Positions 4,431-49,471 of a stretch of DNA of 64,000 nucleotides are shown piece after piece (position 1 is the first letter of the stretch; every line of letters starts with the position of its first letter). The notes below the pieces were generated by a model. It ran no database searches, was not told the DNA's origin, and saw nothing but the letters and a program-made list of their open reading frames with translations. Source of the stretch: Chalara sp. BL73 (Eukaryota; Ascomycota; Leotiomycetes; Helotiales); assembly GCA_918026815.1 (NCBI GenBank), contig CAKJVC010000192.1, positions 62,001 to 126,000 of the forward strand, written 5' to 3'. The translations under genes and the position numbers were made by a program.

Positions 4431-4440
4431 AAAAAGAAAG
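4431..4440 (-). terminator. RNA polymerase III T-run terminator of tRNA-Lys
   Basis: On the minus strand the bases after the tRNA 3' end run into CTTTCTTTTT (4440 to 4431), about 25 nt past the discriminator base. A run of five T is a normal Pol III stop. Its presence argues that the upstream tRNA gene is a real Pol III unit. Confidence 0.65.
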
Positions 4441-4463
4441 ACGATGTAAAGAGTCGGGAATTG

Positions 4464-4596
4464 AGCCCAACGCGGGGGTCTATCAGTTATTAGCCTGCGG
4501 CTCGTGAGAGAAATGCGAGAATTTACTCACCGAACCCGCAGCCTTGAGATTACGCTGCGTAAGAGTCTCACGCTCTACCGATTGAGCTAGCCGGGC
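4464..4596 (-). tRNA. tRNA-Lys(CTT) with two introns: canonical 9 nt plus a GT-AG type 51 nt
   Basis: The minus strand folds as tRNA-Lys. The 7-bp acceptor stem pairs GCCCGGC (4596-4590) with GTTGGGC (4471-4465). The A box is TAGCTCAATCGG. The anticodon arm is TGAGA/CTCTTAA/TCTCA with anticodon CTT at 4563-4561. A 9-nt insert (4559-4551) sits one base after the anticodon, the standard position for the tRNA endonuclease. The T-arm is split after TTCG by 51 nt (4530-4480) that begin GTGAGT, contain GCTAATAAC and end TAG. Removing both inserts restores the T-arm GCGGG-TTCGACC-CCCGC and a 73-nt cloverleaf. The second insert has every mark of a spliceosomal intron and interrupts the B box. What removes it is inference. 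Confidence 0.85.
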
Positions 4597-41700: not shown

Positions 41701-44700
41701 ATGTTCTCACCGATGGTATGTGGGAAGGAAACAAAAACATAGATCAGTGTTTGGATATACTTGAAAAGGACCTTAATTGCCTTGAAAATGATGATTCGAG
41801 TTCTGGAGTACAGTTTATTACCTTCGGTGATGACCCTATAGGAAGAGAGCACTTGGCTCGGATGGATAATGAGCTTCGCGGGTAGGTTGATTGAAAAAAT
41901 ATCAAATGACTAGCTTCTTCAAGAAAGCACGCTAACTATCGCCCAGAAACAACTTTGACGTCACGCCATCTTCAGGAAATATTTGGAAAATGTTATTTGG
42001 AGTTGGAAGCGATAAAGTTGGCCAGCGAAGATGTCGTTCTTTAATGCGTCTTCCAACATTAAAGAATCCCTTAAGGCGGATGTCAACTGCATTTTCACTC
42101 AAGTCAGCAGGATCAAGGCATGGGGCGGATCGAACTGACACTGTCGTGGTGACTGATCGTCCTAAGCCTAGACGCCAGCTTCCAAGTTATGGGCTATTTG
42201 AATGGACAAGCTCTCCCTCCTCAACCATGGAGTATATTGCATCATTCCTCCCCCGATCTCTCAAAATACTAACTTGACCCATTTTAGTTTCGTTTTTATT
42301 CACGGGCTCGATGGTGATAGAGAAAAGGACTGGATTGTGCGCGGGAGAGGTTCCACGTATTCACACAACTGGCCGAAAGATCTACTGTCGTCTCAATTTC
42401 CACATGCTAGGCTCTTGACTTATGGTTATGATTCTACACCATGGCGCTCGCCAAACCCGCTCAAAGATATAATCAAGATCCAAGCTTGTGTTTTACTTGA
42501 CAACCTTTATCAAATTCGGGTGCGGAATCCGGAGCGACCAGTAATCATGATTGCACAAGGGGCTGGCGTTCTTCTAGTAAAAAGTGCGCTCCTCCAGTCA
42601 CATCTCACGTTCGGTCCGGATTCAACAAAAGAAGAGGCAATCAAGCTGTCTACTACTGGTCTGATTCTGCTGGAGCCTCCGGATATACAGCATACGGACG
42701 AATCAGTTCTAGCTGTATTAGAGTCGCATGGACATGGAAGCGTTAGTAACAATTCTAGAAAATCCATATTCCGAGATGTAACTTGGCTGAAACTTCAACT
42801 GGAATCTTTCCGGAGCATATCTGGCTCTTTCTCTTTCTTCTGCTTTCATAGCCGCAAAGCAGGAGCCCATAAACAACATTTACCCTTCGTAGTAAGTCCT
42901 TCGCAATTTGTACTAGCAGTTTATTGAATACTTCCAGCCTGCAACTGCAACCAGTTCGCCAAACGCTCATACCAAACAAATGTCGCCAAGGATCTCTGAC
43001 CACGCTGGGCAGCTTCTTGAGGAACCAAAACAAATAGATAATGCCTCATATTCTACGTATACAACTCAAGCCAATGAATGCTTCGAAGTTGATCGAATCA
43101 ACGAGTTCCAAGGCGAAGATGATCGAGACTATCAGGCGATCATTAGGGCTTTTGAAGCTCTGTCAAGGGAGGCTGCCGAGAAAAGCAGACGTAATTGGGC
43201 AATCTACGAAATGGAGAGAGGTAAATTTCAGTAACCTAGATTTATATAGAGCTTCTGGTGGCTAATTCATTCAACTTAGCGTATGCGGAGACTCAAGATG
43301 CAGGGTTCAACGACTCGGAGCTCGTTAGAATTCATCCGCCACGAAACGAACACTTTACTGGCCGACATGCCGACTTGGATTCTATACGTGCCGCAATTTT
43401 CAGTGATGCCAAAGGCACGCCACCCAAGGCCTTCTCCTCTACAGTTGAAATATACGGCGTTGGAGGAATTGGGAAAACACAGCTTGCACTTGAATTTATT
43501 CATCGATACAAGTCTAAGTTTTCCATGATCCTTTGGATTGACGCGCAAAGCCGTGCCTCAGTACAAAAGTCTTTTTCCAAAATCGACCGTACTCTGTCAC
43601 GAAATCGGGTTACTAATGTAATGACCACTCAAGGTTCTAGACTCAATATTAGTGGATCCGCAGATTCGACGAGTGGTGTTGATTCTGTGAGAAGTTTGAC
43701 TTTAACACGGAAAGCAGAGCCACAGGGGCTACCGTCTTGCTCCACCGACCTGGTAAAGGCTTGGTTGGCAAAAGAAAATAATGACCGGTGGCTAATGGTC
43801 TTTGATGGCGCAGATGACGAGAAAAAGTCATGGATTCAAGATTTTCTCCCGAACACCAAGAATGGCCATATCTTGATTACGAGCCGCCATCGGGATCTCC
43901 TAAGGTACAGCACTAGAGTACGACTAGGCCCCATGACGGAGGAAGATTCTGTGAAGCTTCTGTTGTCTTCTTGTCCTGATAGTAGGCTGTGGCCCATTTT
44001 ATATTCTCTCCCAAAACTGACAAATGATTAGGCGAAGAAAGGCCGGCATTGGAACTTGTGAAGACGTTGGACTGCATTCCATTAGCTATAGCACAAGCAG
44101 GTAGCTATATCGCGTCAACCAAAATGACCACTGGGGATTATCTCAGCCGGCTCAAAGAAACGAGACCTCAGGATTGGGATGAATATGCAACACGTATGAA
44201 AATGCTCTTCTCAACTTCAGTCGATGAGGTGTTCGAAAGTTCTTACCAAGAAGTCAAAGCCAAGGACCCTGGCGCTCTAGATTTACTCATTCTATGTTCA
44301 TTTCTGGCAGCAGAAAACATTCCAGGTGTTGTTCTTGAGGCTGGTTCAAATCGATCAGGTATTTATTCTGACCTTCAGTGAAATTGCAGAATTAACAAAG
44401 AACAGGACGTCGTGTCGATGACATGGTTGATACCTTGTTTAACAATGGCTTTGGGCATCGCGAAGAGAACCTACAAGGCTTTCGGATGCACAGCTTGGTG
44501 CAGTCATGGATCAGGCAACACCTGAGTCCCGAAAAGCAAGAAGCGCTCGTCAGTAGAGCTCTCACTACCCTTGCCACTGTAGTGGAGTCCAAACGATCCA
44601 GAGACGTGAAAGTTTTGCAAGGTTTAGAAAAGCTGCTTCTGGGGCATATAATTGCATGTCTCTCCCGAGCTGAAAATATCACGCATTGCGATGTCAGCTG

Positions 44701-45679
44701 GTGTGTCTTGGGGAATATTTGCAAACAGCAGAAACGATATATCGAGGCTGTTATACTCTACCAAAACGGCCTCTCGGATCCAGACATCGCCAAGAAAAGA
44801 GATTGTACTCAACGACAACATCTTGGCTATGAGCTTGGATTATTGTACCAGTTACAAGGAAGGCATTATGATGCTGTGGAAAAGTACGAAGAAATCCTGG
44901 AAGAATGCAACCGAGATCCTCCAGGTAAAGATAGCCTCCACCTTCGTGGACAGTTTCTCCTTGACATATACAAGGCCCTGTCATCTGTTCATACACGCAT
45001 TGGGGGACTGGCTCAATCTGAGGAAATTTTGATGGGAGGCGTTTTGAAGCTCGAGAAGCTCTTCGGAACTAACAGCATTCAAACACTGCAGCTGTTGGAT
45101 ACCTCTGCAGCAGAGTTTTACGACCAGGGAGACTACGCACAGGCAGAAGAGCTCTTCAAATGGATCGTCTCGGCTCAAATCCAAACACTAGGCATTGTTC
45201 ATCCAAGGACTATACACGCGCAAGAAAAGCTCGCCAGAGTCTACTTCCAACGAGACAAATTTGAAGATGCAGAAATGCTCTGCCAACAATACCTTTCTGG
45301 TCTCGAAAAATTCCTCGATGCCCAGCACCCCACCATCCTCCAACAAGTCCTCTTCCTCGGCCGTATCCACACCAAGCTGCATAAGTTCTCAGAAGCAGAA
45401 GCGAGTTTCTGCCGTGCAGTCAAAGGGTACGAGGTCCTAGGTCTCCAGCATCCAGAAACTCTTAATGCAAGAGAGGAGCTAGCGATGTGTTTTGAGGCCC
45501 AACAAAAGTTGAAGGAAGCACATGGGGTGTATATGCAGGTTATGTTTGGGCGCGAGGATGGGAAGGATCCGAGGATTAAGGAGACGTTGAGGAGGCTGCT
45601 ACCGCTTATGGAGAGAATGGGGATGAAGGAGGAGGCGAGACAGTTGGTGGTGCAGTGGAGCAATGGGTTTAGGGAGTAG
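38723..45679 (+). CDS. Giant NLR: kinase - vWA - alpha/beta-hydrolase - NB-ARC - TPR
   Basis: Twelve exons join in frame to 2,115 aa: 38723-39490, 39541-39887, 39933-40090, 40153-41034, 41111-41307, 41361-41881, 41947-42231, 42288-42891, 42938-43220, 43280-43981, 44032-44358, 44406-45679. Modules: kinase-like, with beta-3 Lys in FVLKSYN (268), catalytic LDVKP (D376), DFS (401-403) and DIWSLGCV (440); vWA-like, with IIDDAASM (787-794) and VLTDGMW; alpha/beta-hydrolase, with FIHGLDG (about 1057), where the usual GHSLGG elbow is AQGAGV (1142-1147), so the nucleophile Ser is lost; NB-ARC, with P-loop GVGGIGKT (1408-1415), WLMVFDGADD, ILITSRHRDL and CIPLAIAQAG; then TPRs (about 1750-2105). The vWA-hydrolase junction sits on a 56-nt intron with a perfect TACTAAC branch. 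A two-gene reading is possible but less likely. Confidence 0.8.
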
Positions 45680-47488
45680 AGTGTAGCAGGGTCGAGTAGA
45701 CGTTCATGAGTTTACTTTATCGTTTGGGTAACTTCCTTGGTTTTTGTAGATGCAGTGGTTCTCGGGGCAATTGGGGATTCGTAGGTACGACTTTGTTTAC
45801 TTAGAAAGCCAGAATTTTATATCTATGACCGGACGAAGAAAATTAAGGTAACATCATGCAGCATGTGTTAGCAACACCCACCTACCGCATGAAATACATA
45901 AGTACCTTGCGGCAAGGACGTAAAATAAAGTAATAAGATATAATAAATAACCAAATTTCAAATCCTAAATCCCAAATTAGATCGATTTACAACTTGCAAA
46001 TCCATAGAGGCAAATAACAATGGGAAATAATAGGACATCATAAATCGCAATCGGAAATCGATGCATAACAAGCTTGGAGATTTTTTACTTTCTTAATATT
46101 TCTAATCTGAAGATATCACTAACGTAGGTAAGCATGGCGGAGAGGCTGAATAGGCACAGAATTGAGATGATTTAAGGGCAAAATAGACGTTTATTTAACA
46201 ACAAAGAAAATAAAGGAAGGGGTAGAACGGTGATATACGCCTTGGTTAGGCGCTTTGAGAAGGAAGTCAACGGCAATAGAAGCCTGCTCGTTAGTAACAA
46301 GTAGTCCACGTGATTCCAGTTGTTGTTCCGATACAGGTTCTTGGTGGCTCCGTGGACTATATGCACCTTCTCCGACGAAAATTACTTGGCTTTCTTGTAT
46401 TTATGATATCGAAACTACTATTCGGAATCTCCTCTTGTTGGTCAAAGCGCCGGCGCTTGGTTGAGAAGCCAGCGTCGTCGATGATGTCGTTATTTAACGT
46501 CATCGAGGCTGTAAATCGCATGCTAAAGTGTTGTTTGCTTATTTATTCTATGTTTTATCTTTTATAAACAAACAGATCACGAGAAAAGAAACAAGTACCG
46601 CAGGTTTATGTAAATATGTAAAATAGGAATTTTGCTATGCTATCATTATACTTGAGATTAAAAGTCGTGAAAACAGGCCACGAAGATATGTATGCATTAA
46701 CGCAGCATTTAAGATTGGGCTTCTTTGCAAACCTGTCAGCCAGCTTGATTCTGCAGCTGTTAAATAGAAGCGAAGAGTAAAAAATTGTTTGCCTGATCCA
46801 AATCACATGGGCCATGGCCTAGGCAATAATATACCAAATATAAAGCTACCATTATAATCTCAGACGACAATTGAGCTCACCAAAGTCCATTTCCGTCTTT
46901 GGACCTGAGCAGTGACTGCTTTAACTTGAGCTGAGCCTTGAGTCTTGGGCATGCTAATGGGTCAGCTGGATCACGCTCCCTTGAGAGTCGGTTACAATTA
47001 CTATATTATTCATATATAGAATTTTGCAAATCCTACCGCCTGTAATATGACTACCTCTTTGAGCCTGTTAAGATGTCGTGACCGTGTCCCTTCTCGCTCT
47101 CTGTCATACTTATTAAGGGAGCCCGACTTGGGTCCCCTTCTAGTCCGTCCTACGTGACTCGATGGGTTTATTCAGCCGCGGAGGCCTGCTCAAACCCTCG
47201 AACCTCCTCAACTCCCTAAACAGCTCAATTCGTAGACGAATATACGACTTCATTTTTCTAAGAGCTTGTTTAGCTTTCCTCGCTATTTTAGCAGTATTGT
47301 TTGGATATCTACTGGCGTTTTATTATCTGAAACAGGTTAAGTAAGCCGGTAAGCCCCAAGGCTTAACGCTTCCTGCCGTGCAGCCGCAGTGACAACTCAT
47401 CATGAGTTATACAGGCAGATTTAAATCAGCCTAGGCGCAAATTATATGTAGATATGTAGGGTCACAACCTCAGACCGCAAATCTTTTA

Positions 47489-47521
<33 letters not shown>

Positions 47522-47560
47522 TTTTGGGGTCTATGACCTCAGCTTCTACTTCGACAGAGC
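45680..47560. other. Intergenic region, AT-rich, with 21-base A run
   Basis: No gene is called. A minus-strand stretch near 46.35-46.52 kb reads as a possible decayed coding tail. A 60-codon plus-strand frame (47162-47344) has one hydrophobic segment (RACLAFLAILAVLFGYLLAF) but no other support. A homopolymer of 21 A (47501-47521) lies 40 bp upstream of the HET gene start. Confidence 0.35.
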
Positions 47561-49471
47561 ATGTCGCGTTATGAATATAAGCCCCTGGATCCGAGCAGAA
47601 GAGAGTTCCGGCTCCTTCATATCCTGCCAGAAAATGATCCGACGCTAGACCACGCTTCCTCGGCCGCTCCTGTTCGGTGTACTGTAATCCACGCCAGTCT
47701 GGACGATGCGCCAGAGTACAATGCACTTTCGTACACCTGGGGCGATGCTTCCATCACAGTTCCTATTCTCGTCGATGGAATCGAGTTCCGAGCGACGTCG
47801 AATCTCGAAGTGGGGCTTCGCCACCTGAGAAGGAAGGACCAGATGGTGACCCTTTGGGTTGACTTGCTGTGTATTAATCAAACTAACATCCCGGAGAAGA
47901 ACGTCCAGCTAGGGCAGATGCGGGAAATCTATTTACAAGCAAAGTCGGTGATCGCGTGGTTAGGTCCATCGTATGAGAGTTCCGAGCTGGCGATGAAGTG
48001 GATCCAGGACTATGGTGGACGTTCGCATCAGTTGAACATTGGGGGTGTCGGAGGACCACGACTTATTTCCCTTCTCGATGCTCTCGACGGGCTTGATACG
48101 CCAAGTGATGAACTTGTAGATGAGGAAGCGGTGCTCTTCGCTGCTGATCTCAAAGAGCAGCTTTTGCCTGCCAATTTATGGCACGCGGATCTGATCACGG
48201 CACTTCTGAAGCTGTTTAGGCGCGGCTATTGGAGCCGAATCTGGATTGTCCAGGAACTGGTAAGCGCCTCGAATCTGATCTTTGTATGTGGGAGTGATAC
48301 GGCTTCGGACAAATCCCTCTACGCTGCCTTGAGACTGCTGCGGAATTTCACCCAGTATCAGAACCTGAAATGGGATCGCATGGTCCAAGAGACGCATTTT
48401 GTGAAGCCGAGTGACGTTTCTTTAACGGCAATCAAAACAGACCGACCAATAAACATGTTGAAGTTCAGGAAAACTGCTCATCCGGCTCCGCTGATACACC
48501 TCATACGTTCTTTCCGATTCTTCAGCTCCACAGATCCAAGGGACAAAGTATTTGCCTTGCTGGGGATCTCAAGAGATGCGGAGGTGCTCGGTCTCCGTGC
48601 AGATTACAATAAGACGTGCGAACAGGTTTATACTGATACGACGAGAAAATTGATACATGCCGGGTACTTCGATATCTTGGGAATCGTCCATTTCCCTAAG
48701 AATGTACCGAGTCTGCAATCTTGGGTCCCAGATTTGTCTAGGACAGGCTATCGAGCCCCGTTACAGGAGCGATCGCTTGAGCGCAGAGGCCCACCTGGAT
48801 TGACTCGGCTAGAACCAAGGTTCTTTGCATCTGCTACGAAGGAGAAGGTTGTGTTGAGACGCGAGAACACGATGGATCTAAATGTGCCCCTCTCCCTTCA
48901 TGCGGTGCGGGTTGGGAAGATCGAACAAGTAGGAATGCATTGGGAAAACGAGGGAGGTATAGGCAGATGGCTGCATGAGCTGCAAAGACTATCGCAGCTC
49001 AACAATCTCATAAATGATGAGGATGAGGAGGTGGCGAAGCGTCGGGCGTATGCTGTTTGGCGGACAGCGGTTGCTGACCAAGAGATTCGACAAGGGGTTA
49101 GGAAACCGAGACTGGCAGATGAAAAAGTTCACACTGCGTACGAGGCGTTCAAAGAGGTTGATTTGAATCATGTGGGTGAGAAGGCTCTGCAAGATATAGG
49201 TCTAAGTTTTTATTGCGAGTGGTTGCAGTCTGTGTCGAAAGGCAAGCGTCCTCTCCTCGGTGAAGGAGGACATTTAGGGATAGGTCCAAGTGAGAGTGAG
49301 CCTGGAGACATTGTATTTGTGCTGCTCGGATCAGACTTGCCATTTATCATGCGGAAGAAAAACGATACGTCCGGGAGGATGCAGATCATCGGAGAAGCAT
49401 ACCTGGATGGAATTATGGATGGTGAGGTGATGGAGAAGAATCCCGTGATTGAGACGATTGACCTTTGCTAG
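47561..49471 (+). CDS. HET-domain protein (het-6/OR-like)
   Basis: An intact, intronless 636-aa protein. The HET domain has its usual three blocks: EYNALSYTWGD (about residue 50), LWVDLLCINQTN (about 102-113) with NVQLGQMREIYLQAKSVIAW, and RGYWSRIWIVQEL (about 224-236). The DPRDKVFALLGI segment and a C-terminal GDIVFVLLGSDLPFIM block mark it as the longer het-6/OR type. HET proteins trigger cell death on non-self recognition in filamentous ascomycetes; this one has no attached NB domain. It sits 1.9 kb beyond the NLR in the same direction, so it is part of the allorecognition island. The start is the first ATG and gives a normal N-terminus (YKPLDPSRREFRLLHI). Confidence 0.93.
   Translation: MSRYEYKPLDPSRREFRLLHILPENDPTLDHASSAAPVRCTVIHASLDDAPEYNALSYTWGDASITVPILVDGIEFRATSNLEVGLRHLRRKDQMVTLWVDLLCINQTNIPEKNVQLGQMREIYLQAKSVIAWLGPSYESSELAMKWIQDYGGRSHQLNIGGVGGPRLISLLDALDGLDTPSDELVDEEAVLFAADLKEQLLPANLWHADLITALLKLFRRGYWSRIWIVQELVSASNLIFVCGSDTASDKSLYAALRLLRNFTQYQNLKWDRMVQETHFVKPSDVSLTAIKTDRPINMLKFRKTAHPAPLIHLIRSFRFFSSTDPRDKVFALLGISRDAEVLGLRADYNKTCEQVYTDTTRKLIHAGYFDILGIVHFPKNVPSLQSWVPDLSRTGYRAPLQERSLERRGPPGLTRLEPRFFASATKEKVVLRRENTMDLNVPLSLHAVRVGKIEQVGMHWENEGGIGRWLHELQRLSQLNNLINDEDEEVAKRRAYAVWRTAVADQEIRQGVRKPRLADEKVHTAYEAFKEVDLNHVGEKALQDIGLSFYCEWLQSVSKGKRPLLGEGGHLGIGPSESEPGDIVFVLLGSDLPFIMRKKNDTSGRMQIIGEAYLDGIMDGEVMEKNPVIETIDLC

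Follow-up and report, generated by a model that had tools for sequence, protein, structure and literature searches.

The closest described systems to the locus analysed here are the U6 snRNA genes of fungi, in which a short GT-AG intron with its branch site lies within a Pol III-transcribed small-RNA gene. A paper of 2017 states that, among small structured RNAs, frequent interruption by an intron has so far been known for U3 and U6 alone (PMC5832005). The nuclear rRNA introns of lichen fungi are a further parallel, being spliceosomal, mRNA-type introns in a structural RNA that is not made by Pol II, though the host in that case is a Pol I transcript and not a tRNA; in the available portion of another source, yeast is described as removing a spliceosomal intron from its own rRNA, a Pol I transcript (PMC8527467). 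Among tRNA genes, introns outside the anticodon loop, the T arm included, occur in archaea, Cyanidioschyzon and nucleomorphs; their removal is attributed to the tRNA endonuclease, typically with a bulge-helix-bulge motif, and two papers make this attribution for the T-arm introns of archaea and nucleomorphs (PMC4090602, PMC3978253). A review of 2026, in the part available, classes tRNA splicing as spliceosome-independent (PMC13149111), and no report of a nuclear tRNA gene with a spliceosomal intron appeared among the matches listed in titles and abstracts of open-licence papers, a body of literature outside which most subscription papers fall.

The tRNA-Lys(CTT) gene described here lies in a stretch of 64,000 nt, the window, and carries two inserts. 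Like the U6 genes it has a short insert with mRNA-type signals, but here the interrupted RNA is a tRNA, its A and B boxes are internal, the insert breaks the B box, and the product must form a cloverleaf. The smaller insert sits after base 37, at the canonical place of eukaryotic tRNA introns (37/38), whereas the larger one, in the T-loop, does not. Its anatomy, its recurrence in the genome and its splice signals point, with a probability of about 0.78, to a working gene in which a short spliceosomal intron of the U2 type would divide the T-loop (57/58) and whose Pol III-made transcript would be spliced and charged.

The window copy (C169) occupies 133 nt on the minus strand, is read from 4596 down to 4464, begins GCCCGGCTAGCTCAATCGG and ends with T73 at 4464. 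Exon 1a (4560..4596, minus) comprises tRNA positions 1-37, with the A box, and its 37 bases are the same in copies C169, C122, C62 and C141. Directly after A37 follows the 9-nt anticodon-loop intron CGCAGCGTA (4551..4559, minus), which could form a helix (TTACG/CGTAA) with the anticodon arm and is missing from the other four Lys(CTT) loci of the genome. Exon 1b (4531..4550, minus; positions 38-57) supplies the 3' side of the anticodon stem, the variable loop, the 5' side of the T-stem and TTCG; its base 47 is C here and T in the other Lys(CTT) copies. The T-loop insert of 51 nt (4480..4530, minus) lies between G57 and A58, a junction one base earlier being equally possible. It opens with a GTGAGT resembling a 5' splice site (4525..4530), holds a branch-site-like GCTAAT (4489..4494) whose putative branch A, at 4490, is ten bases before the insert's end, and closes with a 3' splice-site-like TAG (4480..4482), all on the minus strand. 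Exon 2 (4464..4479, minus; positions 58-73) is identical in C169, C122, C62 and C141 and lacks one C in copy C57. The anatomy given in the preliminary description, a cloverleaf completed only by removing inserts of 9 and 51 nt, the first one base past the anticodon CTT and the second with GTGAGT, a branch-like site and TAG, was confirmed throughout. ARAGORN reports no tRNA in the window nor in the native C169 gene; when the T-loop insert alone is taken out, its result is a tRNA-Thr(cgt) whose intron is misplaced, and only when both inserts are taken out is it tRNA-Lys(ctt). The Rfam tRNA model scores C169 at 24.7 bits, under the gathering score of 29.

Searches of the assembly (58,659,784 bases, 58.7 Mb, in 199 contigs) with the spliced tRNA and the locus as queries recovered five Lys(CTT) loci, namely the window copy C169, C122, C62, C57 and C141. 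Four of the five carry a homologous T-loop insert of 50-51 nt at the identical site, those of C122, C62 and C57 being 50 nt long in genes that have no anticodon intron, while C141 is uninterrupted. GTGAGT, GCTAAT with its A ten bases from the end, and a final YAG are kept in all four inserts (TAG in C169, C62 and C57; CAG in C122). An anticodon-arm pattern matched exactly only C57, C62, C122 and C141 in the genome, C169 going unmatched because its own anticodon intron interrupts the arm; at two mismatches ten matches were added, against three in a reversed control. The 3' part of the insert, searched with up to three mismatches, occurs four times in the genome, each time in a Lys(CTT) locus (control, 0); a dispersed repeat or introner was therefore rejected. 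A genome-wide pattern for T-loop introns gave six matches and its reversed (backwards) control seven, so that this search counts only through the four matches that fall in tRNA-Lys genes; the other two, on C66 and C194, did not look tRNA-like by eye and no further case is claimed from them. One exact pattern each, run against viral contigs and against GTDB contigs, brought up no interrupted copy; one uninterrupted tRNA lies on a viral contig.

Over 7.1 kb C57 and C62 are 99.6% identical; C57 has an insert equal to that of C62 but has lost one C after it, in the T-arm, and seven trailer bases. As a near-duplicate with lost bases it is not counted as independent or as surely functional; the 7.1-kb duplicate is perhaps the other haplotype. 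Whether ordinary Lys(CTT) genes lie elsewhere and whether homologous inserts lack GT-AG ends had both been raised in the preliminary description. Within this genome one uninterrupted gene stands against four interrupted ones, the damaged near-duplicate C57 among them, and all four inserts keep GTGAGT, GCTAAT and YAG while their other sites drift.

Each of the signals agrees with what is expected of a spliceosomal intron, with a start that fits GTRAGT, a branch site that fits RCTRAY close to the 3' end, and a terminal YAG. For comparison, three protein-gene introns of the window could be placed via homologous proteins. They measure 47, 44 and 44 nt and start with GTATG or GTATT, and from branch A to end the distances are 10, 9 and 9 bases; the resemblance already remarked between the insert and the introns of protein genes is seen in branch spacing (ten bases against 9-10). 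In size the inserts, at 50-51 nt, are close to but longer than these introns, a comparison confined to three examples with homology support. Just 19 of 2,000,000 random window 50- to 54-mers have a GTRRG start, a YAG end and a CTRAY with its A 6-25 bases from the end, a rate that is only a rough guide because the test was set after the inserts had been seen and because the three protein introns themselves fail GTRRG. Stronger evidence than this random-match rate comes from the three other loci in which the insert recurs at an identical site.

The proteins of the window also bear on its origin. Its CTU2 protein has its best-named match in Bisporella sp. PMI_857 (97%), as has its DUF7702 protein (91% over 69%), and for its folylpolyglutamate synthase unnamed proteins at 88-93% come first, the best of the named ones being from Hyaloscypha variabilis (83%). 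Judging from these matches the fungus, near Bisporella, is a member of the Helotiales, an order to which both Bisporella and Hyaloscypha belong. Elsewhere in the window, at 43240-49471, ORFs with NB-ARC, TPR and HET domains stand in a row, an arrangement like that of fungal incompatibility clusters.

Introns in the T arm are already known from archaea (56/57, 59/60) and nucleomorph tRNAs, as far as the consulted part of one paper goes (PMC4090602), and many nucleomorph introns lack a defined bulge-helix-bulge according to the accessible text of another (PMC3978253). Since a true anticodon intron lies in the same C169 pre-tRNA, the T-loop insert might be a non-canonical tRNA intron of the sort found in archaea, red algae and nucleomorphs, cut out by the tRNA splicing endonuclease, its GT-AG ends being a coincidence or a relic. 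We consider this very unlikely. When a bulge-helix-bulge was taken as a 4-bp helix flanked by 3-nt bulges that contain both junctions, at most two of the four central pairs could form at either possible junction in C169, C122 and C62 (C57, with the insert of C62, was left out), and removal by this route was rejected for these copies and, on the same count of at most two of four pairs, for an insert in a Lys(TTT) gene described below. Moreover, the bases kept in all four T-loop inserts include the 5' splice site, the branch site and the AG, for which an endonuclease has no need. Pairing between insert and T-stem was likewise looked for, and complementarity was no better than in shuffled inserts in C169, C62 or C122. 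A 6-bp helix with one double change was dropped, its length being reached in 1648 of 2000 shuffles for C169 and 1720 of 2000 for C62; in C122 the best run is a different match of 7 bp, reached in 934 of 2000.

The pattern of divergence among copies points to selection on the mature tRNA of the interrupted genes. Between C122 and C62, 11 of 50 insert sites differ and none of the 73 tRNA sites (Fisher p = 2.4e-5); for C169 and C122 the figures are 10/51 and 1/73 (p = 5.8e-4), and for C169 and C62 12/51 and 1/73 (p = 8.8e-5). These pairs are not independent, and C57 as a near-duplicate and C141, having no insert, were left out. Hence the inserts drift while the tRNA parts and splice signals are kept, as expected if the mature tRNA is under selection in interrupted genes. 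Gene conversion among copies could also keep the tRNA parts alike, but would need to spare the insert. A different account, which we regard as unlikely, is that an intron-like piece entered a tRNA-Lys gene and that non-functional copies of it spread, with C141 doing all the work. The bases lost from C57 would fit such dead copies, as would the blindness of ARAGORN to all four interrupted Lys(CTT) genes, a complete miss that matters for gene finding as well; the Rfam model catches three of them at a low 31.5-35.5 bits and leaves C169 under its cut-off. The decayed tRNA parts of a pseudogene are nevertheless not seen in C122, C62 and C169 (0-1 changes in 73), the decay of C57 amounting to a one-base loss. 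The tRNA of C122 and C62 is unchanged while their inserts differ with the splice signals spared, the tRNA of C169 folds fully with a single base change, and C169, C122 and C62 all have bodies free of T4 with a T5 run downstream.

The surroundings of the copies are consistent with Pol III units. In 10 kb compared for each, the similarity of C62, C122 and C141 starts at -12 in every pair and runs on for 32-63 bases after the tRNA, an extent that would correspond roughly to a transcription unit; C169 shares with the other copies only the tRNA plus TCAATTCCC. The 12-nt leader is nearly identical in C62, C122 and C141 (L009-L011), and the three have an identical trailer, about 33 nt long, whose end is close to the palindrome-like GAGCAGTTGCTC. 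As regards loss or gain in C141, an exact loss of the intron via spliced RNA is an attractive candidate because leader and trailer are common to C141, C122 and C62, but the inserts are about equally distant from one another in an unrooted comparison. In the terminator test, which took in C169, C122, C62 and C141 and left out C57, each copy has a T4+ run after the gene and none inside. No such run occurs in the gene or insert of C169, C122 and C62, where TTTTT follows 29-38 nt past the tRNA, and C141 has TTTTTT at 39 nt. In the window copy the likely terminator is the TTTTT at 4431..4435 (minus), the first T4+ run downstream of the tRNA.

Since mRNA-type signals normally occur in Pol II transcripts, the intron might instead belong to a longer Pol II transcript that merely contains the tRNA sequence, with no tRNA made there. 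To this we give hardly any credence. In the 10 kb compared for each, the similarity of C62, C122, C141 and C169 does not reach further out than about -12 on one side and 63 bases after the tRNA on the other, a T5 run follows the unit, and removal of the insert gives an exact tRNA.

The internal B box is the element of the promoter that the insert destroys, the interrupted GGTTCGGTGAG scoring -2.1 bits on a matrix built from 17 tRNAs of this genome, C141 included, in which the Glu and Phe tRNAs were entered with the anticodon introns taken out. From -100 to +400 the best site is the same in each of the four interrupted Lys(CTT) genes, GGCTCAATTCC (4457..4467, minus, in the window copy), which spans the 3' end of the tRNA and scores 9.3 bits, a value reached by 0.00011 of the window's 11-mers. 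It falls below all 17 B boxes of the matrix (11.4-16.9 bits, scored on the training set itself) and is present in uninterrupted C141 too, so that it is not tied to the intron. As a candidate substitute, GGCTCAATTCC may perhaps replace the broken B box. Such a displacement would have a parallel in fission yeast U6, where a B box lies inside the intron.

Under the reading of a working gene with a spliceosomal intron, we infer that Pol III transcribes the locus, that the downstream B box is used and that the product is spliced and charged. One pre-tRNA would be made by Pol III, starting just upstream of the tRNA and ending at the T5 run; with the internal B box broken by the intron, TFIIIC would probably bind GGCTCAATTCC. 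The spliceosome would excise the 51-nt insert as a lariat without requiring a cap, which the splicing of U6 introns is not known to need either, and the tRNA endonuclease would cut the 9-nt anticodon intron out of the same precursor. We put at about even the chance of a wider proposition, which is that a nuclear tRNA is matured by the spliceosome, that the window copy needs both the spliceosome for its T-loop and the tRNA endonuclease and ligase for its anticodon loop, that Pol III is now recruited through a B box on the tRNA's 3' edge, and that most Lys(CTT) genes depend on the spliceosome. The uninterrupted C141 could alone supply tRNA-Lys(CTT).

Other Pol III genes of this genome were inspected for comparable inserts. 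The mRNA-type intron of fungal U6, the closest precedent given in the preliminary description, is seen in the genome itself, where three of six U6 loci have GT-AG mRNA-type introns at a common position: L024 (C121), L026 (C82) and L027 (C179), with CTAAC or CTAAT before GAAACGATACAG, their boundaries being set by eye. The loci L022, L023 and L025 have no GT...AG insert. A U2 match lies near each of L022, L025 and L026; two of these, L022 and L025, resemble U6 but have diverged, and the intron is absent from both. Lys(TTT) has two loci, one intact on C49 and one interrupted on C121 (L034 = G000:C121:417400-417900, about 149-278), where a 54-nt insert of the form GTAAGA...TCTAAC...CAG follows base 9 and bases 9-74 equal the intact copy unchanged. 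This insert is unlike the T-loop inserts by eye and would thus be an independent case; the C121 copy may be silent because the insert, which comes after the 5' end and ahead of the A box, holds TTTTT, a likely Pol III stop. The 5S rRNA model matched 15 places at E up to 10, of which the ten above the cut-off are each 120-122 bases long and so give no sign of introns.

The demand for this tRNA can be set against its gene supply. In six stretches of the window, three of them bare ORFs, AAG accounts for 90 of 3047 codons, or 29.5 per thousand; the codons that the tRNAs Val(AAC), Ile(AAT) and Ala(AGC) decode reach 28.9, 44.3 and 36.4 per thousand there. In the Rfam listing these three tRNAs have four genes each and uninterrupted Lys(CTT) has one, so that AAG demand fits, weakly, the use of the interrupted genes; the argument is weak because the listing is a lower bound. 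That listing has 63 places, of which 11 lie on the mitochondrial contig and 10 on plastid-like contigs, 35 are full-length nuclear tRNAs, all read with ARAGORN and a few with anticodon introns, 4 are interrupted Lys genes and 3 are weak. It is incomplete, at least two Phe-type genes that it missed having been found by probes; besides these, probes for the other missing acceptors found only an Asp-like stretch at C112, which says little because the probe was copied, in whole or in part, from C112. A tRNA-Gln(CTG) (L036, C126:201000-201350) has an oddly long stretch between its anticodon arm and T arm. The loci L037, L038 and L039 (C192, C188 and C189) show the orders trnQ-trnS-trnR and trnE-trnY-trnD, which we take to be those of a plastid; plant or algal DNA hence seems present in the assembly. 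The contig C115 is apparently mitochondrial and doubled.

The splicing of tRNA and that of mRNA are treated as separate pathways, and a tRNA gene that depends on the spliceosome would, if the reading is right, join the two. The known mRNA-type introns of non-coding RNA would then extend to a Pol III tRNA gene family, and spliceosomal introns would prove able to enter a class of genes whose promoters lie inside the gene. For this fungus, the supply of a major lysine tRNA would hang on pre-mRNA splicing.
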